From positions 1 through 64,000 of the forward strand of contig JAIXTG010000329.1 in the NCBI GenBank assembly GCA_027484285.1: a stretch of 64,000 nt of DNA. Direction: 5' to 3'. A program made the position numbers and the translations under genes. The notes under the pieces are model-generated. The model was given only the letters and a program-made list of their open reading frames with translations. It ran no database searches and had not been told where the DNA came from. The DNA comes from Oxalobacteraceae bacterium (lineage in GTDB: Bacteria > Pseudomonadota > Gammaproteobacteria > Burkholderiales > Burkholderiaceae_D). Positions 1,356 through 29,183 of this stretch are shown here, piece after piece; the stretch's first letter is position 1; each line of letters starts with the position of its first letter.

Positions 1356-1785
1356 AGAGTCCGACTCTCTCCCGCTGCTCATCCCACAGCGCTGGCGGAT
1401 CAACCGCCAGATCAAACAGCGTGACGTGGTTCGGCAATTCGTCGTCCAGGATGGCCGCCACGATGTCGGGTGCCAGCGTGGTCAGGTTGACCATCCGGCT
1501 GACGTAGCTGTTGTCGATCCCCTCCCGCGTGGCGATTTCCTTCAAGGACTTCGCTTCCCCCGATTCCAGCATCGCCAGCCAGCGGTGACCCCTGGCCAGC
1601 GCCAATTGAATGGAGGTCGGTGCCACGTCCCATGGTCTGACCGGTGCAGTCTCACCGTTCGGGAGAGTGACCAGCTTGCGGCCGCTGCGCCGCTTGATCT
1701 GGATCGGCACAGACAGAGTTAGCCGGCCATCACTCGCCTCAACGATGTCCGGCTCGCCAGTTTTCTGGATGCGGATGTCGCTCAT
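1354..1785 (-). CDS. Small HTH/ParB-like protein of the recombinase-DUF2924 module
   Basis: LKEIATREGIDNSYVSRMVNLTTLAPDIVAAIL is a KorB/ParB-like HTH; overlaps recombinase stop. Confidence 0.6.
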   Translation of the reverse strand: MSDIRIQKTGEPDIVEASDGRLTLSVPIQIKRRSGRKLVTLPNGETAPVRPWDVAPTSIQLALARGHRWLAMLESGEAKSLKEIATREGIDNSYVSRMVNLTTLAPDIVAAILDDELPNHVTLFDLAVDPPALWDEQRERVGL

Positions 1786-3137
1786 GCCAACGCCTCCGCT
1801 TGTTGCTCGACCGGCTCGGGACGCAGTTCAAGCACCAGCCGCTCGATGCCGTTGGCGCGCAATCGCACCTCGAGGTCATTGGGCGACACGATCACCTTCT
1901 CGACCAGCAATTTCACGATCCGGGTCTGCTCCGCCGGGAACAGTTGATCCCAAATCGCGTCGAGTCGGGTCATGGCCACGGTGATCTTGGCCTCGTCCAG
2001 CGTTGGGTCGAGCTTGATCGCTTGCGGCAGCATGTCGCCGAGCAGATTCGGGGCACGCAGGATGGCACGCAGTTGGTCGAGCACCGCCGATTCGAGTTCT
2101 GCGGCAGGCAGTCGCGGCAGACCCGAGGCGCCCGCGTGTTCCTTGGCGTCGCGCTGGGGCACGTAGTAACGGTAGCGTCGGCCATTCTTCTTGGTGGTGT
2201 GCCACGGCGACAGCGCACGGCCGTCGTTGCCGAACACGATGCCCTTGAGTAGATAGGGAACCTTGGCCCGCGTCGTGTTGCCCCGCACCCGGCCGTTGGT
2301 ATCGAGGATCGCGTGGACGCTGTCCCACAGTTCGCGGCTGATGATGGGCGGATGCTCGGCCTGGTACCACTGGTCCTTGTGCCGCAACTCGCCAAGGTAG
2401 GTTCGGTTGCTCAGGAGCTTGTAGATGTGACCCTTGTCGATCGGCCTGCCATCGCGGGTCTTACCGTCTTGCGTGGTCCACGTCTTCGACGTCACGCCAT
2501 CCAGTTTTAGCTCTTTAACCAGTGCGGTGCTGGACCCGAGTTCGACGAAGCGCTGGAAGATGTGCCGGATCAGCTTGGCCTCACGCTCGTTGGGCACCAA
2601 CCGCCGGTTCTCGACGTCGTAGCCCAGCGGCGGCACGCCGCCCATCCACATGCCCTTGCGCTTGCTGGCGGCGATCTTGTCGCGGATGCGCTCGCCAGTG
2701 ACCTCGCGCTCGAACTGCGCGAAGGAGAGCAGGATGTTCAGCATCAACCGGCCCATCGAGGTCGTAGTGTTGAACTGCTGGGTGACCGACACGAACGACA
2801 CGCCGTAGCGCTCGAACACCTCGACCATCTTGGAGAAGTCCGCCAGGCTACGCGTCAGGCGGTCGATCTTGTAGATGACGACCACGTCAATCTTGCCAGC
2901 TTCGATGTCCGCCATCATGCGCTGGAGCGCCGGGCGCTCCATGTTGCCGCCAGAAAAGGCGGGATCATCGTAATCGTCGGCGACCGGAATCCAACCCTCC
3001 GCGCGCTGGCTGGCGATGTAGGCGTGACCGGCATCGCGCTGAGCATCGATGGAGTTGTATTCCTGGTCCAGCCCTTCATCGGTGGATTTGCGCGTGTAGA
3101 CCGCGCAGCGCATGCGGCGCTTCAAGACTTCGCTCAT
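1782..3137 (-). CDS. Large serine recombinase (resolvase N-term, recombinase, zinc ribbon)
   Basis: YTRKSTDEGLDQEYNSIDAQRDAG..., IYKIDRLTRSLADFSKMVEVFERYGVSFVSVTQQFNTTTSMGRL; start ATG at 3137 chosen over upstream in-frame starts. Confidence 0.9.
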   Translation of the reverse strand: MSEVLKRRMRCAVYTRKSTDEGLDQEYNSIDAQRDAGHAYIASQRAEGWIPVADDYDDPAFSGGNMERPALQRMMADIEAGKIDVVVIYKIDRLTRSLADFSKMVEVFERYGVSFVSVTQQFNTTTSMGRLMLNILLSFAQFEREVTGERIRDKIAASKRKGMWMGGVPPLGYDVENRRLVPNEREAKLIRHIFQRFVELGSSTALVKELKLDGVTSKTWTTQDGKTRDGRPIDKGHIYKLLSNRTYLGELRHKDQWYQAEHPPIISRELWDSVHAILDTNGRVRGNTTRAKVPYLLKGIVFGNDGRALSPWHTTKKNGRRYRYYVPQRDAKEHAGASGLPRLPAAELESAVLDQLRAILRAPNLLGDMLPQAIKLDPTLDEAKITVAMTRLDAIWDQLFPAEQTRIVKLLVEKVIVSPNDLEVRLRANGIERLVLELRPEPVEQQAEALA

Positions 3138-3640
3138 CGACCACCTCTCTTCTTGGTGGCGGGCTTGGCCTTGGCGTTGGACGGTGGCTTGAGGCCAAAG
3201 AACAGCGGACCCGACCAGCGCATGCCTGTGATTTCGCGGGCGATCATCGAGAGGCTCGGGCACATGCGGCCCTGGAAGTCATATTGGCCGTCGGCGGTCG
3301 CGATCACGCGGTACTCGACGCCTTTGTATTCACGGACCAGCACCGTGCCTGCGGCCGGACGGTAGTCGCGGTCGCGCTTTTTCACCTTGCCAGTTTCGAC
3401 CAAAGATTGGATGCGACGCTGATTGCGATCCAGCAGATTGGCGTTGACCTTGCGGAACTCAAGCTCCTGCAGTCGGTAGGCAATCCGGCGTTCGAGGAAC
3501 TGGCGGTTGTGGGTGGGTGTGTCGCCACCGACCAGCTTCTGCCAGAGTGCCCGGATCTCTGCCATCGGCATCTCGGGCAGCCTGGCGATCTGCGCCGCCA
3601 CCGACGGCGGCGTGGAAAATAATGGTGTTTGTGTACTCAT
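3134..3640 (-). CDS. DUF2924 domain protein
   Basis: ARLPEMPMAEIRALWQKLVGGDTPTHNRQFLERRIAYRLQEL; overlaps recombinase start. Confidence 0.8.
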   Translation of the reverse strand: MSTQTPLFSTPPSVAAQIARLPEMPMAEIRALWQKLVGGDTPTHNRQFLERRIAYRLQELEFRKVNANLLDRNQRRIQSLVETGKVKKRDRDYRPAAGTVLVREYKGVEYRVIATADGQYDFQGRMCPSLSMIAREITGMRWSGPLFFGLKPPSNAKAKPATKKRGGR

Positions 3641-3855
3641 TTGGACTCCGTAGTTGTCTTGTTGACGGGGTCTGCATGAACGCGCTGGTTGCCAGAGAAG
3701 CCAAGCTCAAACTCGCTCGCTTCTGTCCTGGCTGCGGACTGTTCTGTGCCGGTGATACGCAGGCGTGCCAGGCCGTTGGCCAGCAACGACGCGATCTCGT
3801 GGCGACGCTGTTCCGGCGTCATCCGCTCCGGTGGTAGATGGTTGATTTGATGCAT
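3637..3855 (-). CDS. Small conserved protein upstream of DUF2924
   Basis: Short ORF overlapping the DUF2924 start: MTPEQRRHEIASLLANGLARLR. Confidence 0.6.
   Translation of the reverse strand: MHQINHLPPERMTPEQRRHEIASLLANGLARLRITGTEQSAARTEASEFELGFSGNQRVHADPVNKTTTESK
3669..3707 (-). repeat. Dispersed bipartite element, copy A
   Basis: Plus strand: GAACGCGCTGGT-TGCCAGA-GAAGCCAAGC; just upstream of the DUF2924 start. Confidence 0.75.
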
Positions 3856-14377: not shown

Positions 14378-16563
14378 TGGCCGACAACATCATCTGGCTC
14401 GACTTCAATGACGCGCCCGAGCAGCGCGACGAACTGACCTCTGACACCGATGCCTTGCGCGCTGGCTTGCTGGATCGACTTGAGGCCGTCCTCCACTACC
14501 TGTTTCCGCAGGGGCGCATCCGGGGTGGCAAGTTCTACGTCGGTGATGTCGATGGCAACCCGGGTAAGAGTCTGGTGGTTGAGCTGGACGGACCACGGCG
14601 AGGCCTGTGGAAAGACTTCTCCACCGACGAGGGCGGCGACATCATCGATCTGTGGGCGCGGTCGCAAGGTCGCTCCGCCCGGGCAGACTTCCCTCGCATC
14701 GCTGGTGAGATCCGGCAGTGGCTCGGTCTTGCACAACCGAACATCACGCCAATGCGCCGCGATGTTCGCAGCGTGCCGATGGATGAACTCGGCGCTTACA
14801 CCGCCAAGTGGGACTATCTGTCACCCGAAGGCGAACTGATCGCCTGCGTCTACCGCTACGACCCACCGACGGGCAAGGAATATCGCCCCTGGGATGTCCG
14901 CGCCCGCATGTGGCGCGCCCCCGACCCCAGGCCGCTTTACAACCAACCGGCCATCGCGAAAGCGCGAGAGGTCGTCCTGGTCGAAGGCGAGAAGTGTGCG
15001 GCTGCGTTGATCGCCTCCGGCATTGCCGCCACCACCGCAATGAACGGCGCCAAGGCACCAGTCGACAAAACCGACTGGCGTCCATTAGCCGGGAAATCCG
15101 TGGTCATCTGGCCGGACCGGGATGCACCCGGTTGGGACTACGCCGAGAGCGCGGCTCGCGCTTGCGTGGTGGCGGGCAGCACATCCGTGGCCATCCTGGT
15201 GCCGCCCGCCGACAAGCCGGCCAAGTGGGATGCCGCAGACGCTGTCGAAGAAGGCTTCGACTGCGCGGCATTCATCGCCGAGGGTGACCGACGGATCGTA
15301 AAGGCTGCGGCTCCTTCTCTGCCTACCTTCACGCTCGGCGAACTGCTCGACGATAACTCACCGCTGCCACCCGATCTGATCTCTCCGCGCGTGCTGACGC
15401 CGGCTGGCATGTTGGTGTTCGGCGGTGCGCCCAAGGTCGGCAAGAGCGACTTCCTGCTGTCTTGGTTGGCGCACATGGCGGCTGGCGCTGTATTCCTCGG
15501 CATGCAGCCACCCCGTCCGCTGCGCGTGTTTTACCTGCAGGCCGAGGTCCAGTACCACTACCTGCGCGAGCGCGTGAAGGACGTGCGCCTGCCGTCCCAT
15601 CGGCTCTTGGATGCCCGCGCCAACTTCGTGGCCACACCGCAGTTGCGGCTGGTGCTCGATGACGCAGGACTGGCACAGGTGATCCCGGCGATCGCGCAGG
15701 CTTTCGGCGGCGAGCCTCCCGACATCATCGCCATCGATCCGATCCGCAATGTGTTCGACGGCGGCGACGCCGGCGGCGAGAACGATAACGGCGCCATGCT
15801 GTTCTTCCTGTCCCAGCGGGTGGAGCGCATTCGCCAGGCGGTCAATCCCGACGCTGGGATCATTCTTGCGCACCACACCCGGAAACTGGGCAAGAAGCAG
15901 TTCGAGGAGGACCCGTTTCAGGCACTGGCCGGCGCGGGAAGTCTGCGCGGCTACTACTCGACCGGGATGTTGTTGTTCAGGCCCGACGAGACCAGAACGA
16001 CCCGCCAGCTGATCTTCGAGCTGCGCAATGGCGCGGGTATCCCGCAACGGCACGTCGACAAGATCAACGGCGAGTGGCGCGAGGTCGATGCCAACGAGCG
16101 GCTGGTGATGAAGGACTACGGCGAGCGCTTGGATGCCGAGCGCCGCCGCAAGCGCGACGCCATCCTTCAGATCTTGTTCGAGGAGGCCAGCAACGGGCGA
16201 TGCTACACCGCCAATCAGTTCGCGGAGTCCTTCGAGGGCAAGGCAGGCCTGGGCGGCGAGCGCACCATCCGCGAACGCGTCTCCGCGCTCTCGACGCAGG
16301 GCTACATCAAATACTTCCGCAACGCTGCGGACTACGGTCTGCCGTCCAGCGGCCGCACCAAGTTCGGCTATCTCTGCGTCGAAGGCATGGTGCTGCGCAT
16401 GCCTGCGGGCGATGTCGACACGGCCACCGGCGAGTTGCCGATGCGCGAGTACACGGTACTCCCGACCCATTACAAGTGCCCGCATTCCGGCGCCTCGATG
16501 CCTGTCGAGAACCCCGACGTGTGGGTCTACCACGACGAATTGAACGACCCGGAGGCCTCATGA
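14374..16563 (+). CDS. Phage primase/helicase: TOPRIM-like N-term plus RepA/AAA_25 ATPase
   Basis: VVLVEGEKCAAALIASG; FGGAPKVGKSDFLLSWLAHMA; start ATG 14374. Confidence 0.8.
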   Translation: MMADNIIWLDFNDAPEQRDELTSDTDALRAGLLDRLEAVLHYLFPQGRIRGGKFYVGDVDGNPGKSLVVELDGPRRGLWKDFSTDEGGDIIDLWARSQGRSARADFPRIAGEIRQWLGLAQPNITPMRRDVRSVPMDELGAYTAKWDYLSPEGELIACVYRYDPPTGKEYRPWDVRARMWRAPDPRPLYNQPAIAKAREVVLVEGEKCAAALIASGIAATTAMNGAKAPVDKTDWRPLAGKSVVIWPDRDAPGWDYAESAARACVVAGSTSVAILVPPADKPAKWDAADAVEEGFDCAAFIAEGDRRIVKAAAPSLPTFTLGELLDDNSPLPPDLISPRVLTPAGMLVFGGAPKVGKSDFLLSWLAHMAAGAVFLGMQPPRPLRVFYLQAEVQYHYLRERVKDVRLPSHRLLDARANFVATPQLRLVLDDAGLAQVIPAIAQAFGGEPPDIIAIDPIRNVFDGGDAGGENDNGAMLFFLSQRVERIRQAVNPDAGIILAHHTRKLGKKQFEEDPFQALAGAGSLRGYYSTGMLLFRPDETRTTRQLIFELRNGAGIPQRHVDKINGEWREVDANERLVMKDYGERLDAERRRKRDAILQILFEEASNGRCYTANQFAESFEGKAGLGGERTIRERVSALSTQGYIKYFRNAADYGLPSSGRTKFGYLCVEGMVLRMPAGDVDTATGELPMREYTVLPTHYKCPHSGASMPVENPDVWVYHDELNDPEAS

Positions 16564-16578
16564 ACATTGCCCAATCGG

Positions 16579-16776
16579 CAGTTGGCAGCAGCGTTGCCAA
16601 CTGCACTCACGTCCTTGCCAACTACACGCAGTTGGCAAACCCCTGCCAACTGGAATCCCTGGCAAATCAAGGCGCTGCCGGAATTACCCCGCAGTTGGCA
16701 GTTGGCAACGCTGCCAACTTGCCAACTGGCGCAAACCCGCGTGGTTGCTGGACTTTCTCGCGTTCTCCAGTTGGCG
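16579..16776. repeat. Cluster of CAGTTGGCA / TGCCAACTG repeats in both orientations
   Basis: (C)AGTTGGCA at 16579, 16629, 16692, 16701 and CAGTTGGC at 16769; TGCCAACT(G) at 16595, 16616, 16644, 16712, 16720. Confidence 0.8.
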
Positions 16777-16792
16777 AAAACTCCCCTTCCTA

Positions 16793-16834
16793 CTACGTAG
16801 GAGAGGGACCCGAAGGTCCCTCCACCCTACGTAG
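16793..16834. other. Nested palindrome/hairpin
   Basis: CTACGTAG (16793-16800), GAGGGACC-CGAA-GGTCCCTC (16803-16822), CTACGTAG (16827-16834). Confidence 0.75.
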
Positions 16835-16877
16835 GGGGCTTGCCGGCCACCCCGGATCAGATCATCGGCGGCCATCC

Positions 16878-17339
16878 ATGCCCTCGATCCTGGCACTGGA
16901 TCTCGGCACCCAGACAGGCTGGGCGCTGCGCGACCGAGATGGCGCAGTGACCAGCGGATCGGAATCCTTCAAGCCGCAACGCTTCGAGGGTGGCGGCATG
17001 CGCTACCTGCGATTCAAACGCTGGCTCACCGAGATCAAGCAGTCCTGCGACGGCATCGACGCCGTGTACTTCGAGGAGGTGCGCCGCCACGCCGGGGTCG
17101 ATGCAGCCCACGCCTACGGCGGCTTCATGGCCCACCTCACCGCATGGTGCGAGCACCACCAGATCCCGTACCAAGGCGTCTCGGTGGGTACGATCAAGAA
17201 GCACGCCACCGGCAAGGGCAACGCGAACAAGGATCAGATGATCAGCGCCGCCCGGTTGCGTGGCCACGCACCGGCTGACGATAACGAAGCCGATGCCATT
17301 GCGCTGTTGCACTGGGCCATCGAGACGCTGGAGGTGTGA
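16878..17339 (+). CDS. RuvC-like Holliday-junction resolvase
   Basis: MPSILALDLGTQTGWAL...YFEEVRRHAGVDAAHAYGG...DDNEADAIALLHWA. Confidence 0.8.
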   Translation: MPSILALDLGTQTGWALRDRDGAVTSGSESFKPQRFEGGGMRYLRFKRWLTEIKQSCDGIDAVYFEEVRRHAGVDAAHAYGGFMAHLTAWCEHHQIPYQGVSVGTIKKHATGKGNANKDQMISAARLRGHAPADDNEADAIALLHWAIETLEV

Positions 17340-18328: not shown

Positions 18329-19762
18329 TTGAATACGCTCAACGTCGAGTACCGCAAGGTCGAGGCGCTGATTCCCTACGCCCGCAATCCGCGCACACAT
18401 TCCGATGCGCAGATCACCAAGATCGCCGCTAGCATCGTCGAATATGGCTGGACGAACCCGGTCCTGGTTGATGGCGACAACGGCATCATCGCGGGCCACG
18501 GTCGTTTGGCTGCCGCACGCAAGCTGGGGCTGGATCAGGTGCCGGTGATCGAACTGGCCCATCTCACCACCGCGCAAAAGCGCGCCTTGGTCATCGCCGA
18601 CAACCGGCTGGCGCTTGACGCTGGCTGGGATGAGGAGATGTTGGCGCTCGAACTGTCGGAGCTTTCCGAAGCGGGTTTCGAACTGGCGCTGACCGGCTTC
18701 GAGAACATCGAGATCGATGCGCTGCTGGCAGATGCCACGCCCACCGAAGCAGAACCTGCGGCGCAGGATGGCGTAGACGCCGATGAACCCGATACGACCG
18801 ATAACGTACCTGACACGCCAGTGGTGGCGGTGTCGCGCGAGGGAGATGTCTGGGCCATCGGCTCGCACCGGTTGATCTGTGGCGACGCCACCGACCCAGC
18901 CGTGGTCGCCACGCTGATGCAGGGTGACACCGCGCAGCTTTGCTTCACCTCGCCGCCGTATGGCAACCAGCGCGACTACACCTCCGGCGGCATTGCCGAT
19001 TGGGATGTCCTGATGCGAGGTGTGTTCGCACATCTGCCGATGGCTGGCGACGGACAGGTGCTGGTCAATCTTGGGCTGATCCACCGCGACAACGAAGTCA
19101 TCCCCTATTGGGACGGCTGGCTGTCCTGGATGCGTCAGCTAGGGTGGCGGCGCTTTGCGTGGTACGTCTGGGATCAGGGGCCAGGCATGCCCGGCGACTG
19201 GCAGGGCCGATTGGCTCCCAGCTTCGAGTTTGTTTTCCACTTCAATCGCAGCACCCGCAAACCCAACAAGATTGTTCCTTGCAAGCACGCGGGCCTGGAA
19301 TCGCACCTGCGCGCTGACGGGTCGTCCACAGCGATGCGTGGTAAGGATGGCGAGGTCGGCGGCTGGACGCACAAGGGTCAGCCGACGCAGGACACCCGTA
19401 TCCCCGATTCGGTGATTCGCGTGATGCGCCACAAGGGCAAGATTGGGCAGGACATTGATCACCCGGCCGTGTTCCCGGTCGCATTGCCTGAGTTTGCCAT
19501 TGAGGCTTACACCGATTCGGGTGACGTCGTGTTCGAGCCCTTCGGCGGCAGTGGTACGACGATGCTGGCCGCGCAACGCACTGGTCGTATCTGCCGCAGT
19601 GTGGAAATTGCGCCGGAGTACGTGGACGTGGCCATCAAGCGTTTTCAGCAAAACCACCCCGGCGTGCCGGTCACGCTCATTGCAGGCTGTGGAATCAAAT
19701 CGGGCCAGTCCTTCGACGACGTGGCCACAGAACGGCTGGCGACCACGGAGGTAGAACAATGA
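18329..19762 (+). CDS. ParB-N domain fused to site-specific DNA methyltransferase (TSPPY type)
   Basis: PYARNPRTHSDAQITKIAASI...IAGHGRLAAARKLG; CFTSPPYGNQRDY; VVFEPFGGSGTTMLAAQ. TTG start. Confidence 0.85.
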   Translation: MNTLNVEYRKVEALIPYARNPRTHSDAQITKIAASIVEYGWTNPVLVDGDNGIIAGHGRLAAARKLGLDQVPVIELAHLTTAQKRALVIADNRLALDAGWDEEMLALELSELSEAGFELALTGFENIEIDALLADATPTEAEPAAQDGVDADEPDTTDNVPDTPVVAVSREGDVWAIGSHRLICGDATDPAVVATLMQGDTAQLCFTSPPYGNQRDYTSGGIADWDVLMRGVFAHLPMAGDGQVLVNLGLIHRDNEVIPYWDGWLSWMRQLGWRRFAWYVWDQGPGMPGDWQGRLAPSFEFVFHFNRSTRKPNKIVPCKHAGLESHLRADGSSTAMRGKDGEVGGWTHKGQPTQDTRIPDSVIRVMRHKGKIGQDIDHPAVFPVALPEFAIEAYTDSGDVVFEPFGGSGTTMLAAQRTGRICRSVEIAPEYVDVAIKRFQQNHPGVPVTLIAGCGIKSGQSFDDVATERLATTEVEQ

Positions 19763-21000
19763 GCGCGTCCTGGTTGGCAGACAAGATTGAGCAGTGGCCT
19801 ACAGCCAAACTGCTGCCCTATGCACGCAATGCGCGGACACATTCGGATGATCAGGTGGCGCAGATCGCCGCATCGATTGCCGAGTTTGGCTTCACCAATC
19901 CGATCCTTGCAGGCAGTGACGGCATCATCGTCGCTGGGCATGGACGCTTGGCCGCTGCGCAGAAACTTGGGCTTGAGATCGTGCCCGTGGTCGTACTGGA
20001 TCACCTGAGCCCGACCCAGCGCCGCGCCTTGGTCATCGCAGACAACCGCATCGCGGAGAACGCGGGCTGGGACGATGCGATGCTCCGGATCGAACTGGAA
20101 GCCTTGCAACTCGAAGGTTTCGATCTGGACATCACCGGCTTCGACGCCGACGCGCTGGCCGAACTGATCGCGGGCGACGAGCCGGACAATGAGGGACAGA
20201 CCGATGAGGATGCGGTACCGGAGGTTGGCGAAATTCCAATATCGCGCCCGGGCGATGTCTGGATCATGGGCCAGCACCGACTGCTGTGCGGCGACTCGAC
20301 CGTGGCCGAGAGCTACGACCGACTGATGCAGGGCGACGTGGCAGACATGGTCTTCACCGACCCGCCGTACAACGTGAACTACGCCAACAGTGCCAAGGAC
20401 AAGATGCGCGGCAAGGATCGCTCGATCCTGAACGACAACCTGGGTGACGGTTTCTACGACTTCCTGCTGGCAGCATTGACGCCCACAGTGGCGAACTGCC
20501 GGGGCGGCATCTATGTGGCGATGTCATCCAGCGAGCTGGATGTGCTGCAGGCCGCCTTTCGCGCCGCCGGTGGAAAGTGGTCGACGTTCATCATCTGGGC
20601 CAAGAACACCTTCACGTTGGGCCGCGCCGACTACCAGCGCCAGTACGAACCGATCCTGTACGGATGGCCCGAGGGTGCGCAACGTCACTGGTGTGGTGAC
20701 CGCGATCAGGGGGATGTCTGGAACATCAAGAAGCCGCAGAAGAACGATCTGCATCCGACGATGAAGCCGGTGGAGCTGGTCGAGCGGGCGATCCGCAATT
20801 CGAGCCGCCCGGGTAACGTCGTCCTCGATCCGTTCGGTGGTTCTGGCACAACGCTGATTGCGGCCGAAAAATCAGGTCGCGTCGCGCGACTGATCGAACT
20901 CGATCCGAAGTACGTGGATGTGATCGTGCGCCGGTGGGAGGACTTCACCGGCAAGCAGGCCACCCGCGAGGCAGCAGACCAGGAAGTGTGCGCCAGTTGA
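19759..21000 (+). CDS. ParB-N domain fused to site-specific DNA methyltransferase (DPPY type, probable N6-adenine)
   Basis: PYARNARTHSDDQVAQIAASI; VFTDPPYNVNY; VVLDPFGGSGTTLIAAEK. Confidence 0.88.
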   Translation: MSASWLADKIEQWPTAKLLPYARNARTHSDDQVAQIAASIAEFGFTNPILAGSDGIIVAGHGRLAAAQKLGLEIVPVVVLDHLSPTQRRALVIADNRIAENAGWDDAMLRIELEALQLEGFDLDITGFDADALAELIAGDEPDNEGQTDEDAVPEVGEIPISRPGDVWIMGQHRLLCGDSTVAESYDRLMQGDVADMVFTDPPYNVNYANSAKDKMRGKDRSILNDNLGDGFYDFLLAALTPTVANCRGGIYVAMSSSELDVLQAAFRAAGGKWSTFIIWAKNTFTLGRADYQRQYEPILYGWPEGAQRHWCGDRDQGDVWNIKKPQKNDLHPTMKPVELVERAIRNSSRPGNVVLDPFGGSGTTLIAAEKSGRVARLIELDPKYVDVIVRRWEDFTGKQATREAADQEVCAS

Positions 21001-21070: not shown

Positions 21071-21203
21071 GTTTATGCCTAAACTGCTTGCTGCGGTGCA
21101 CCAAGGTGGTTTCCATTCCTTGCTCACCAAAAAATAGGTGAGCGGCTCAGATCGACCCAGAGTGGCCTTTCGCCTTTGGTCAGTAGCGCGACTGAAAGCA
21201 GCC

Positions 21204-21223: not shown

Positions 21224-22402
21224 TCATTCGGTTGACGGCGTCAGCGCTCCGGCAAGCTCCTCGACGGCTGCGGTAGCTTGGCTGCACAACGCGGCGAATT
21301 GTTCTGAGTACGTAGACGGCTTCTCGTCCCGATTTAGGATCTTGTGATCAGCATCGACTCGGAGCGCAGATACCTTACGAAGGACCTCCGACAGACTGCC
21401 AGGTAGCTTGAACTGCTGCTCAAGCAACGCCAGCAGCTGGCTGCTGCTGAGGGGGCGCTTTGACTGATGATGCACAAAGTCGGATGCAGACAACCCCAAC
21501 CTATTTTGGAGAATGTCCTTCATGGTCGCCTGAGAGAGTGCGTCGGGGCCAATGATCTTGTAGAGCTCGCTAGCGCAGTCGCAGAAGGACTTGTACGTTT
21601 GCTCAACTGGCGCGCGAAGGTGAACGTTCTCGAGTCGAGTGAAAAGCGCGCCGGGCGACACGATCGAGTTCAGAGATCGCATTGCGGCGATCAAATCGGC
21701 GATGGGGTCAGGGTACTCGACCCAAGATCCATCGTAGGTTCTGCCGAGAAAGGCCTGGAAGTTGGGATCGCTGGACTCCAAGTCTGGCTTTACCAGTTCA
21801 TGGGAGTGCCAGTACCTTTGCTCCAACACTCCCATGTCAGCAAGATCCTTGCAGATCGCAGTGACTGCAATTCTTCCGTCTCGAAGTCGGCATTTGCCAT
21901 ACCTGACATACAGATAACGATCGTCAACATCTTCCCCACGTGCGTTGATCTCTCCGCCGGCGAGACTGTCACTAATGTCGTACAGCTCCGGATGATCAAA
22001 GTAGCGAGATAGAACCTCCTCGGAGAAGAAGATGAGTTCAATCTGCTGAGTACCGAGGTGCAGTCTTACAACGTACTCGGTTAGGTTTTGTGCCGGTAGT
22101 TCAGAAGCGTAGAAGGCCCGACGCAGCGCGCCCCTGGAGGGGAAGAAGATGTGGGTCGTGAATGGCCTCTGGGTAAAGCCACCACTAGGTTTGGCGGGGT
22201 CGAAGCTCAGCGCGACCAGCTTTACGTCACGATTTAGGGTGCCATAGCCCAGATGCGCAAGCTCCTCAACCGCTGCCAGTGCTTGCTCATGTGACACCGA
22301 GAGCTTCTCAGCAATGGTGCTCGCGCTGGCGCCGCCGTGGTTGGCGAACCATTCGGCGAGCCCTTCATCAAGAACAAGTGTTTGGAAGTCAGTGAGGGAC
22401 AT
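21224..22402 (-). CDS. Hypothetical protein with N-terminal winged-HTH-like segment (392 aa), cargo gene
   Basis: Single long ORF: GGASASTIAEKLSVSHEQALAAVEELAHLGYG; opposite strand to phage operons. Confidence 0.7.
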   Translation of the reverse strand: MSLTDFQTLVLDEGLAEWFANHGGASASTIAEKLSVSHEQALAAVEELAHLGYGTLNRDVKLVALSFDPAKPSGGFTQRPFTTHIFFPSRGALRRAFYASELPAQNLTEYVVRLHLGTQQIELIFFSEEVLSRYFDHPELYDISDSLAGGEINARGEDVDDRYLYVRYGKCRLRDGRIAVTAICKDLADMGVLEQRYWHSHELVKPDLESSDPNFQAFLGRTYDGSWVEYPDPIADLIAAMRSLNSIVSPGALFTRLENVHLRAPVEQTYKSFCDCASELYKIIGPDALSQATMKDILQNRLGLSASDFVHHQSKRPLSSSQLLALLEQQFKLPGSLSEVLRKVSALRVDADHKILNRDEKPSTYSEQFAALCSQATAAVEELAGALTPSTE

Positions 22403-22568: not shown

Positions 22569-22618
22569 ATGTCACAAAAATGACATCAACGAGTCATCAG
22601 GGTGTCATATCACGACAT
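22569..22618 (+). promoter_or_regulatory. Candidate Pho-box array upstream of the ptx operon
   Basis: ATGTCAC(22569) AAAA ATGACAT(22580) CAAC GAGTCAT(22591) CAGG GTGTCAT(22602) ATC ACGACAT(22612), compared with the CTGTCAT half-site. Confidence 0.55.
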
Positions 22619-22637
22619 TACCATCGCTGCAATTCAG

Positions 22638-22671
22638 ATTCGTAATCAGGTCATCATTTTTGATTACGAAT
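22638..22671 (+). promoter_or_regulatory. Perfect inverted repeat upstream of ptxA
   Basis: ATTCGTAATCA (22638-22648) - 12 bp - TGATTACGAAT (22661-22671). Confidence 0.6.
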
Positions 22672-22691
22672 TCAAATCTGCCGGAGGTGTC

Positions 22692-24373
<1,682 letters not shown>

Positions 24374-25183
24374 GTGAGCGACAGCATGCAAGCTGATTTT
24401 GGTTTGATTCTGGCCGAGCGCCAGCGCGTATGGAACCGCACGATACTGCAGTTTGCCGTTGTGCTGGCGATTGTGATCGGTTGCTGGTATTACGTCGGCC
24501 TATTTGATGCCGAGCGATTGAAGGATGGCATGCCAAGCCTGGTAAAAATTGCCGGCGAGATGTTCCCACCGAACTTCTCGCAGGCTGGCACCTGGGTCAA
24601 ACCGGTACTGGATACCTTGGCCATGAGTATCGCCGGCACGGCAATCGCGGTATTGCTATCCATTCCCTTAGGAGTGCTCGCCGCGCGGAATACTAGCCCT
24701 CATCCACTCGTGTATCAAGCCACACGCGGCCTGTTAAACGCTTTGCGATCGATACCCGAACTGATCATGGGCATCCTGTTCGTGGCAGCCGTTGGCTTCG
24801 GCGCATTGCCGGGTGTTTTAGCCCTAGGCTTACATTCGGTTGGCATGATCGCCAAATTTTTTTCGGAATCGATCGAACATGCCGATCCGGCACCGGTAGA
24901 AGCCGCGCATGCAGCGGGCTGCACGCCATTGCAGGTGATTTTTCATGGGATCTTTCCCCAAGTGCTTCCGCAAATGGCCGATACCGCGATCTATCGATGG
25001 GAATACAACTTCCGTGCTTCGACCGTGATGGGCATGGTCGGCGCCGGTGGAATCGGGTTCGAGCTGATGGGCTCTCTGCGCATCATGCAATACCAGGATG
25101 TCTCGGCTATTTTGCTGGTTATTTTAGGCATGGTTACCCTCGTCGACGCCTTCAGCTCCTTCCTGCGTCGCAAGTTCAAATAA
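24374..25183 (+). CDS. ptxC: Phosphite/phosphonate ABC transporter permease (PhnE family)
   Basis: ESIEHADPAPVEAAHAAGCTPLQVIFHGIFPQVLPQMADTAIYRWEYNFRASTVMGMVGAGGIGFEL. Confidence 0.92.
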   Translation: MSDSMQADFGLILAERQRVWNRTILQFAVVLAIVIGCWYYVGLFDAERLKDGMPSLVKIAGEMFPPNFSQAGTWVKPVLDTLAMSIAGTAIAVLLSIPLGVLAARNTSPHPLVYQATRGLLNALRSIPELIMGILFVAAVGFGALPGVLALGLHSVGMIAKFFSESIEHADPAPVEAAHAAGCTPLQVIFHGIFPQVLPQMADTAIYRWEYNFRASTVMGMVGAGGIGFELMGSLRIMQYQDVSAILLVILGMVTLVDAFSSFLRRKFK

Positions 25184-27099
<1,916 letters not shown>

Positions 27100-27223: not shown

Positions 27224-27337
27224 TCAGGGCAGTGCAATGCACATTACCAGCACAGCCTGCTCGATGGAGATGTCTGGACGCCGGTTGGCAGTCAGCCAAC
27301 GCAGTGCCTGCTCCCGTTCGGTGGCGGGCGTTTTCAT
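27224..27337 (-). CDS. Small phage hypothetical protein (37 aa)
   Basis: MKTPATEREQALRWLTANRRPDISIEQAVLVMCIALP; start overlaps preceding stop (ATGA-type). Confidence 0.5.
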   Translation of the reverse strand: MKTPATEREQALRWLTANRRPDISIEQAVLVMCIALP

Positions 27338-27699
27338 CAGGCAGCCAGCTCTTCGCAGATTTCGCAGTGGATCACAAAGCCTGTCAGGTAAGGCAGGCCG
27401 CGCGGGATGCCGTACTGCTTGCTGGTCTGGCGGCCAATCGTCCAGCCCATCCAACGTTGGGTGGCGGCCTTGATCGCATCCTGCAAGGCTTGGCCTTGGT
27501 ACAAGCCGTTCTGGACGTCGTCGGCAAAGTGGCGTCCGTGGCGGCTGTCGAGGAAGGTCCGCACCGATTCGAGGGGCTGGTACGTGGCGTCCGAAATGGT
27601 GTTCATGGCCAGGGGCCATGCGGCGCTGGCGTGTTCGTTCATCGTGCCCCAAAAACCCCAGGCTTCGTTCTGGGTGGTGGGGATCTGGTTGGTGGTCAT
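27337..27699 (-). CDS. Phage hypothetical protein
   Basis: MTTNQIPTTQNEAWGFWGTMNEHASAAWPLAMNTISDAT..., preceded by dispersed element copy B. Confidence 0.7.
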   Translation of the reverse strand: MTTNQIPTTQNEAWGFWGTMNEHASAAWPLAMNTISDATYQPLESVRTFLDSRHGRHFADDVQNGLYQGQALQDAIKAATQRWMGWTIGRQTSKQYGIPRGLPYLTGFVIHCEICEELAA

Positions 27700-27724: not shown

Positions 27725-27766
27725 CGACACCTGTAGTAACGCGCTGTTCGATTGAGAAGCCAAGCT
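27725..27766 (-). repeat. Dispersed bipartite element, copy B
   Basis: AACGCGCTGTT-CGATTGA-GAAGCCAAGC. Confidence 0.75.
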
Positions 27767-27796
27767 GTTCCTGGCCTCTTTCTCGATCAATTTCGC

Positions 27797-28156
27797 TTAC
27801 CCGAGACGGGCTACGTATCGGGCGTAATCACCGCCCTCGGGATTGACGTAGAGGTAAGGGCGTCCGGGAGCAGTGACCTCGACGCAGAGGTAGCCGTCGC
27901 CAGTGCCGCCACCCTTGCCACGCAGCCAGTCGCGTGACACCAGCAGGCTGCGCCCAAAGGCGTCGAATTCGGCAGGGGTGAGCTCCTTGGTCTCGGTGAC
28001 GTAGACATTGTGCTGGTCGCTCCCGCCCGGTTCGCCGAGGTCGGCAGGTTTGCGTGCAAACGGTAGGCGGATGCTCAACTCTTCGACCTGGAGGCTTTGG
28101 CCTGCGAACTGCAGAGTGCGTGGGGTGCGTTCGATGGTGATGGTCATGGTGCTCAT
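27797..28156 (-). CDS. Phage hypothetical protein
   Basis: MSTMTITIERTPRTLQFAGQSLQVEELSIRLPFARKPADLG..., preceded by copy C. Confidence 0.65.
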   Translation of the reverse strand: MSTMTITIERTPRTLQFAGQSLQVEELSIRLPFARKPADLGEPGGSDQHNVYVTETKELTPAEFDAFGRSLLVSRDWLRGKGGGTGDGYLCVEVTAPGRPYLYVNPEGGDYARYVARLG

Positions 28157-28187
28157 GGCGGTTTTCCTGGTTTGGCGTCGTCAATCA

Positions 28188-28229
28188 CGACATCTGTATG
28201 AACGCGCTGGTGGGGAGAGAAGCCAAGCT
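28188..28229 (-). repeat. Dispersed bipartite element, copy C
   Basis: GAACGCGCTGGT-GGGGAGA-GAAGCCAAGC. Confidence 0.75.
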
Positions 28230-28285
28230 ATTCATGGCTCCTCTCGCCATCTTTTTGGCTTCGCCGAAACTCGCTGTGCTCGTTT

Positions 28286-28849
28286 TCAGGCGATGCGGTA
28301 GATCCGCTCGCCACCCTTCGGCTTGTCCGAGACGATGTTCAGGCCGAGCTTTTTCTTGAAGGCTCCGGCGAAGGTGCCGCGCACCGTGTGCGCCTGCCAA
28401 CCGGTGGCGGTGCAGATCTGGCCGATGGTTGCGCCCTCGGGGCGTTGCAGCATCCGGATCACTTCGGCCTGCTTGCTGTTCTCGCGGGTGCGCGGCTTGA
28501 CCCACGTTGCTTCTGCGGCGGTTACGGCGGCTTCCAGTTCGGGATCGCTCGCGGCCGCAGGCGCGCCTTCAGCGTTGGCGATGATCCGGTCGAGATTGGC
28601 TTCGAACTGACCGATGCCCTTCCTGTTCACGTCGGGACGCGGAATGCCCAGGGCGTCGTAGCCCTCCGCAGCGACAAACCAGTCGGTGCCGTCGGTGGTG
28701 ATCAGTGCGCGGTTGAAAAGTCCGTCGAGCACCTTCTTGCGTGCGCCGCCTTTGATGTTGTCGGGGAACCAGTCGATCTTGCCGCTGGTGTGTTCAACCG
28801 CGTGGGCCAGGATCGCGTGCTGGGCAGGGGTCAGTTGAGTGGTGGTCAT
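28286..28849 (-). CDS. DUF3489 domain protein
   Basis: SKQAEVIRMLQRPEGATIGQICTATGWQAHTVRGTFAGAFKKKLGLNIVSDKPKGGERIYRIA. Confidence 0.85.
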   Translation of the reverse strand: MTTTQLTPAQHAILAHAVEHTSGKIDWFPDNIKGGARKKVLDGLFNRALITTDGTDWFVAAEGYDALGIPRPDVNRKGIGQFEANLDRIIANAEGAPAAASDPELEAAVTAAEATWVKPRTRENSKQAEVIRMLQRPEGATIGQICTATGWQAHTVRGTFAGAFKKKLGLNIVSDKPKGGERIYRIA

Positions 28850-28876
28850 TTGCTGCTCCTTCGGGGTCGTTGATCG

Positions 28877-28917
28877 AGTGACGTGATGAACGCGCTGTTC
28901 GGGAGTGAAGCCAAGCG
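28877..28917 (-). repeat. Dispersed bipartite element, copy D
   Basis: GAACGCGCTGTT-CGGGAGT-GAAGCCAAGC. Confidence 0.75.
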
Positions 28918-28939
28918 CTTCCTGCTTGGCTCCCGGCGT

Positions 28940-29116
28940 TCAATCGAGGAGGTAGAGGTCAGCTTCCGGAACAAGCTCCGTGTACCCGGCCCTGTGCAGG
29001 ACGACGACCTTGCCGTCCCGCCGGCCTTGCACCAGGCCAACCCTGCGTTGGCCCTTGGCGTTGTAGTAGGCGACCTGGTCGCCTTTCTTGGCGGGTTGGT
29101 TGATGGTCTTGTTCAT
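28940..29116 (-). CDS. Small phage protein (58 aa)
   Basis: MNKTINQPAKKGDQVAYYNAKGQRRVGLVQGRRDGKVVVLHRAGYTELVPEADLYLLD; absent from the supplied ORF track, preceded by copy E. Confidence 0.6.
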   Translation of the reverse strand: MNKTINQPAKKGDQVAYYNAKGQRRVGLVQGRRDGKVVVLHRAGYTELVPEADLYLLD

Positions 29117-29141
29117 CGCGTTCTCCTTTGGTTGATCGTGC

Positions 29142-29183
29142 TGACATCCGTATGAACGCGCTGTTCCCGATGGAAGCCAAGCT
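29142..29183 (-). repeat. Dispersed bipartite element, copy E
   Basis: GAACGCGCTGTT-CCCGATG-GAAGCCAAGC. Confidence 0.75.

Follow-up and report, generated by a model that had tools for sequence, protein, structure and literature searches.

A conserved bipartite element ahead of small genes in a prophage lineage as a candidate per-gene promoter

We found that a bipartite element in a prophage region of an Oxalobacteraceae genome, repeated at a constant distance ahead of nearly every small gene in one block of a widespread prophage family, is genuine, of ancient origin and close to invariant over hundreds of phages. The original prediction had proposed a cis-regulatory role for the repeat, as a phage promoter, a repressor or activator site, or an RNA leader. 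This proposal is supported, since the element proved to be non-random, conserved and not a recent duplication, and among the three options the promoter now has the most evidence. Each copy would be the individual promoter, with a short leader, of the gene behind it, using a non-canonical -10 box and probably a phage-specific factor, a reading to which we give a probability of about 0.58.

The element and its copies in the window

In the window (the whole stretch of 64,000 nucleotides that was analysed), the pattern AACGCGCTGKT-N7-GAAGCCAAGC occurs without mismatches at 27738-27765, 28201-28228, 28889-28916 and 29155-29182 (copies B to E), as had been noticed from the sequence, and a fifth exact copy (A) at 3679-3706, ahead of a DUF2924 gene, raises the total beyond the four counted at first. 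Dinucleotide shuffles of the window (n = 100) gave 0 matches, even with up to three mismatches. All five copies lie upstream of minus-strand genes, and the close placement described for copies B to E was borne out: the distance from the G of GCTTGGCTTC to the ATG is 66 nt for copies A, B and E, 67 nt for D and 72 nt for C. Read in gene orientation, the window copies have the form GCTTGGCTTC-N7-AACAGCGCGTTCAT, with copy B ending in ...GTTACT instead. The proposed architecture of seven variable nucleotides followed by an invariant half stands as regards the 7-nt spacing. The true core is three bases longer than first noted (minus strand ...GCGTTCAT, in B GCGTTACT), and N7 is weakly biased, with C at position 11 in 62% and G at position 16 in 74% of sites. 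The consensus in gene orientation is [G]CTTGGCTT[C]-N7-AACAGCGCGTT[CA/AC]T, a bipartite core of 31 bp. The copies and the genes behind them are as follows.

3676..3706, minus strand: copy A, GCTTGGCTTC-TCTGGCA-ACCAGCGCGTTCAT; weight-matrix score 54.9; overlaps the 3' end of the small gene 3637-3855
3134..3640, minus strand: DUF2924 gene behind copy A (66 nt); Pfam PF11149, E 3.2e-40
1782-3137: serine recombinase gene, next after DUF2924; Pfam Resolvase/Recombinase
27735..27765, minus strand: copy B, GCTTGGCTTC-TCAATCG-AACAGCGCGTTACT; score 62.9; predicted transcription start near 27728
27337..27699, minus strand: 120-aa gene behind copy B; PHROG 8020, function unassigned there; ATG 66 nt from the first base of the element
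28198..28228, minus strand: copy C, GCTTGGCTTC-TCTCCCC-ACCAGCGCGTTCAT; score 56.0; predicted transcription start near 28191
27797..28156, minus strand: 119-aa gene behind copy C (72 nt to the ATG)
28886..28916, minus strand: copy D, GCTTGGCTTC-ACTCCCG-AACAGCGCGTTCAT; score 62.2; predicted transcription start near 28879
28286..28849, minus strand: DUF3489 gene (187 aa) behind copy D; Pfam PF11994, E 5.5e-32; modelled with AlphaFold2 and searched with Foldseek
29152..29182, minus strand: copy E, GCTTGGCTTC-CATCGGG-AACAGCGCGTTCAT; score 61.8; predicted transcription start near 29145
28940..29116, minus strand: 58-aa gene behind copy E

DUF3489 and DUF2924 are the only Pfam names among the five element-bearing genes of the window. 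A second prophage in the same genome (contig C77) carries five further copies.

Conserved peptides, read on the opposite strand as MNAL[FV]xxEAK or on the gene strand as LASxxNSAF or LGFxxxQRVH, were considered and rejected. Coding is not the reason for the conservation, because copy B and one of the C77 copies contain stops or lack a start, and because the third codon position is no less conserved than the first two. The end of the small gene at 3637-3855, before DUF2924 (ELGFSGNQRVHADP...), is simply an in-frame reading of element A, and this DNA element probably also accounts for the matching C-terminus in small proteins related to it.

Several other features of the region were recorded. 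At positions 1-119, next to the serine recombinase operon (1782-3137), lies the 3' part of a tmRNA gene (Rfam RF00023), the probable attachment site of the prophage. A phosphonate/phosphite uptake operon at 22602-27099 (PhnC, PhnD-type and PhnE-type ABC transporter genes), which also encodes a D-2-hydroxyacid dehydrogenase family protein and a LysR regulator, separates the phage methylase genes from the DUF3489 block and looks like prophage cargo; its gene order resembles that of ptxABCDE (phosphite oxidation). Within 16074-17339, a 146-aa stretch that had no Pfam match is 74-81% identical among the window phage, AcaML1 Gp18 (annotated as a putative polynucleotidyltransferase) and the second prophage, a high value for the lineage.

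Conservation across phages and inheritance with the downstream gene

An exact scan of one genome per species retrieved at least 119 stretches with the element, and IMG/VR at least 107. The hosts include many Beta- and Gammaproteobacteria and also Candidatus Nitrospira defluvii. With an iterated weight matrix we collected 592 sites in loci chosen by the motif, with 0 matches for the reversed matrix; the halves CTTGGCTT and AGCGCGTTnnT are near-invariant among these sites, their spacing being fixed by the search itself. Because the first site sets had been chosen by motif, an unbiased set was assembled by DUF3489 protein homology only (61-98% identity). The element was present in all 79 loci of this set, directly preceded the DUF3489 gene itself in 78 of them, and was on the DUF3489 strand at 249 of 249 sites, in agreement with the conservation expected in related phages. 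Nor is the motif random genome-wide, which would have spoken against the original prediction: the reversed pattern gave 0 matches both in 25 phage records and in the listed genomes of a survey of the same class (274 genomes), where DUF3489 was over the cut-off in seven, the motif was present in nine and both were found in five. Variants of the element include AGCGCCTT and GAGCGTTAAT. In a prophage of another genome (L253:782-2422), four of the five copies in the block have AGCGCCTT in place of AGCGCGTT; coevolution with a factor or local homogenisation could account for this.

A reading frame follows 509 of 527 sites, starting mostly 64-68 nt from the first G, and its start codon is ATG in 499 of the 509. 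These genes fall into 41 clusters, 25 of them with at least two members. About 25 unrelated small-gene families are represented, and the small genes are arranged in 69 distinct orders among 133 arrays. For phage AcaML1 (JX507079.1, L236:20791-22479), the annotated start of Gp30 lies upstream of the element at 21142 and is probably too long, and at 22274 another element, followed by a gene that the annotation lacks, overlaps Gp33 ('terminase small subunit') on the other strand.

The original prediction had left room for a recent duplication of one intergenic segment. This is refuted, because outside the core two copies from one phage resemble each other no more closely than copies from different phages do: identity between same-locus and unrelated copies was 38.9% versus 38.7% for N7, 31.0% versus 30.2% for the 40 nt upstream, and 40% versus 38% for the leader. 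Copies ahead of the same gene family at different loci were 55% alike in N7 and 56% in the leader, and the core halves were 90-98% alike in every comparison. The element is old, is inherited together with its gene and is maintained by selection.

Promoter-like signals, candidate factors and alternatives

The sequence around the core has the geometry of a promoter. Among non-redundant sites, 99% have a pyrimidine at position 36 and 84% a purine at position 37, and we infer that transcription would start at this Y-R step, 7 nt past the core. With position 37 as +1, TTGGCT falls at -35 to -30 and GTTCAT, after a spacer of 17 bp, at -12 to -7; the resulting A/C-rich 5' UTR would contain a Shine-Dalgarno site and measure about 29 nt. 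A-rich blocks with a period of 11.3 bp precede the core at about -4, -15 and -27, which places them near -41, -52 and -64 relative to the putative start. UP-element subsites lie near -41 and -52, and the A-tracts could act as an UP element or as bent DNA. The periodicity persists in 80 sites that lack any 5-mer of the hairpin arm described below (power 2.57 versus a permutation maximum of 0.92), and the phasing is also seen across downstream gene families. No sigma-70 consensus promoter was found in 27.1-29.4 kb, and a promoter must be located near copy E, because this copy lies in the ~120-bp gap between the divergent terminase small-subunit gene (terS) and the DUF3489 block.

Compared with sigma-70 promoters, which have a TTGACA-like -35 box and a spacer of 16-18 bp, the -35 box and spacer agree (TTGGCT-N17 in the main set, TTGA[CT] in remote relatives) and the -10 box does not: GTTCAT/GTTACT has the T at position 6 but also a T at position 2. 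Remote relatives come closer to an ordinary promoter. On the Agarilytica plasmid pSU2, whose DUF3489 is 25% identical, seven block leaders keep the same register with [AG]CTTGA[TC]...GCGTTAAT or looser variants, and the ATG is 61-71 nt off. Here CTTGA-N18-GCGTTAAT corresponds to a -35 TTGA(C/T), 17 bp and GTTAAT, the boxes of this type being TTGA[TC] and mostly GTTAAT. Two viral loci, probably of the same genus, share the pSU2 pattern (TTGA[CT]-N17-GTTAAT), and in Eleftheria terrae GAGCGTTCAT is kept while the upstream boxes differ, one of them being TTGACG. Such changes are what a diverging promoter would be expected to undergo. Several findings count against a promoter: the -10 box lacks the A at position 2 that sigma-70 needs, and AGCGCG is GC-rich; moreover, the ATG distance across families is narrower than a promoter alone requires. 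A phage-specific factor probably has to help RNA polymerase, given the poor -10 box and a core whose invariance far exceeds that of ordinary promoters.

Two kinds of phage protein are candidates for such a factor. All 25 motif-bearing phage records with a length of 34 kb or more carry a single DUF3489 gene, and all 25 also carry ParB-domain methylases; the methylases of the window are the second candidate:

18329-21000: two ParB-domain DNA methylases

The AlphaFold2 model of DUF3489 has two winged-helix domains (pLDDT about 85-94 each), whose relative placement is not defined (pTM 0.37). Foldseek matched the model to ArsR/MarR-like winged helices with weak E-values, Pfam gave weak HTH_23 and MarR_2 matches, and a PDB sequence search with the DUF3489 profile found no match. 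In the class survey, elements accompany all nine two-domain DUF3489 loci (in diverged form at two of these) and are absent from four loci whose DUF3489 protein is incomplete or of another kind. Alphaproteobacterial DUF3489 genes (two-domain proteins of Shinella and Paracoccus) have no element alongside, and the second prophage's own DUF3489 gene is without a copy. The co-occurrence of DUF3489 and the element may be explicable by common descent alone, as for the ParB-domain methylases. We tentatively regard DUF3489, a protein with modelled tandem winged helices whose own gene lies behind one copy, as the leading candidate regulator. It is a more speculative and rather doubtful proposal that the element belongs to a dedicated transcription system of one large prophage lineage, in which DUF3489 would read both halves and recruit RNA polymerase to a promoter with an abnormal -10 box. 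If this were true, the small genes of the shuffled arrays, the recombinase operon and the regulator's own gene would form one regulon, which would survive gene exchange between phages of different bacterial classes.

We also considered that the element is transcribed from elsewhere and acts within the 5' UTR, controlling translation or stability via a protein or small RNA in the manner of a start-associated sequence. The nearly constant ATG distance and the invariable sense orientation to the gene are consistent with such a leader, and so are hairpins predicted to overlap some copies:

27749..27785, minus strand: hairpin overlapping copy B; -16.8 kcal/mol, z -3.0
28213..28248, minus strand: hairpin overlapping copy C; -21.1 kcal/mol, z -4.8
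28900..28935, minus strand: hairpin overlapping copy D; -17.9 kcal/mol, z -2.1

The pairing in copy B is between GCTTGGCTTC plus part of N7 and the 3' end of the preceding gene's transcript. Hairpin potential is clear in B and C, weaker in D and A, and absent from E. A complementary arm was found in 55 of 186 non-redundant sites (~30%), compared with about 13 expected from shuffles, and pairing of N7 drops from 3.8 to 2.6 bases when N7s are swapped, above chance in this subset. The hairpin is therefore real in a subset of copies and is not the conserved feature; an obligatory RNA hairpin was rejected, as was any structure common to all copies. Rfam covariance models gave no match for the element over the gathering score, the phased upstream A-tracts are a DNA-level feature, and there is almost no space upstream of copy E for another promoter. 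Taken together, a purely RNA-level leader seems unlikely. The hairpin plausibly has a role at the 3' end of the upstream gene's transcript, although presumably not as the usual intrinsic terminator, since it has no U-tract. If each copy is a promoter, about 30% of them would have evolved an immediately adjoining upstream sequence that pairs with the -35 half and some of N7.

The strict conservation, the 25 of 25 co-occurrence with both candidate factors and the AGCGCCTT variant common to four of five block copies of one prophage would also suit an operator whose only role, beside a separate promoter, is to bind a repressor or activator of the phage, either DUF3489 or one of the ParB-domain methylases. 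In particular, two near-invariant half-sites about 20 bp, or two helical turns, apart would suit a two-domain DNA-binding protein. We consider this improbable: the block shows no separate promoter, the geometry of a promoter is present in the core itself, and the Agarilytica variant has promoter-like boxes.

The many gene orders, and the position of the first copy before the serine recombinase operon, raise the idea that the element is an exchange site for shuffling small genes, by homologous or site-specific recombination. Leader and N7, however, stay with the downstream gene family (56% and 55%, versus 38-40% otherwise), exchange requires neither strict ATG spacing nor phased A-tracts, and the homogenisation of copies within a phage that exchange would bring was not seen, which makes a recombination boundary very improbable. 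On the promoter reading, block genes would be gained, lost and reordered as units that carry the element. Finally, chance or recent duplication is negligible as an explanation: B and C share 74% identity across 88 nt of flanking sequence, but shuffles gave no matches, copies within a locus resemble each other outside the core no more than unrelated ones, and the element is conserved across many hosts.

The element provides one sequence tag for what would be a whole regulon of uncharacterised small genes in a very common, unstudied prophage lineage, and it flags genes and start codons that annotation misses. It also leads directly to a candidate regulator, DUF3489, and makes it a testable question how phages hold newly acquired small genes under common control despite reshuffling.

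Relation to known systems

The element family is not described in the databases and literature searched; a literature search with fragments of the element gave matches that, among those listed, were unrelated by title. Sigma-54 spacing, attC and LexA sites did not fit by inspection. Like sigma-70 promoters with UP elements, the element has a TTG box, a 17-bp spacer, a Y-R start and A-tracts near -41/-52; unlike them, it has a -10 box (GTTCAT/GTTACT/GTTAAT) with T in place of the A required by sigma-70 and a core that is almost invariant throughout, the 3' part of the spacer included. Integron attC sites are likewise intergenic, with a conserved end and a variable stem in an array of small genes. 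In contrast to these, the element lacks the RYYYAAC...GTTRRRY pair around a palindrome, its GTT being followed by CAT or ACT, and has no conserved left end; the majority of copies are without a stem, and the element is tied to the gene that follows it, not to the one before.

In T4-type phages, PeSL cassettes reportedly place an early promoter and a stem-loop between small hypervariable genes and are linked to gene shuffling. The element may resemble them, with a predicted promoter and, in a subset of copies, a stem-loop in the gaps between shuffled small genes. T4 early promoters are strong sigma-70 promoters, whereas the -10 box of the element is non-canonical; its stem-loop occurs in ~30% of copies, and the 3' arm of that stem-loop is the -35 half of the putative promoter itself.

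The SAS of Cluster K mycobacteriophages has the consensus GGGATAGGAGCCC, resembles a ribosome-binding site and lies immediately upstream of start codons; about half of the sites carry an added inverted repeat with a variable spacer (ESAS), a 17-bp imperfect repeat with a common consensus that adjoins the SAS, and their function is unproven (PMC3203893). Like SAS/ESAS, the element is short and asymmetric, has one orientation (249/249) and precedes many small unrelated phage genes. It differs in that its core lies about 35 nt before the ATG (first base 64-68 nt away) instead of forming GGGATAGGAGCCC at the start codon, in having a separate Shine-Dalgarno site and phased A-tracts, in its proteobacterial rather than mycobacterial hosts, and in a hairpin arm restricted to 55 of 186 non-redundant sites. 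By sequence and position the element is not a member of the SAS/ESAS family, but it works like one.
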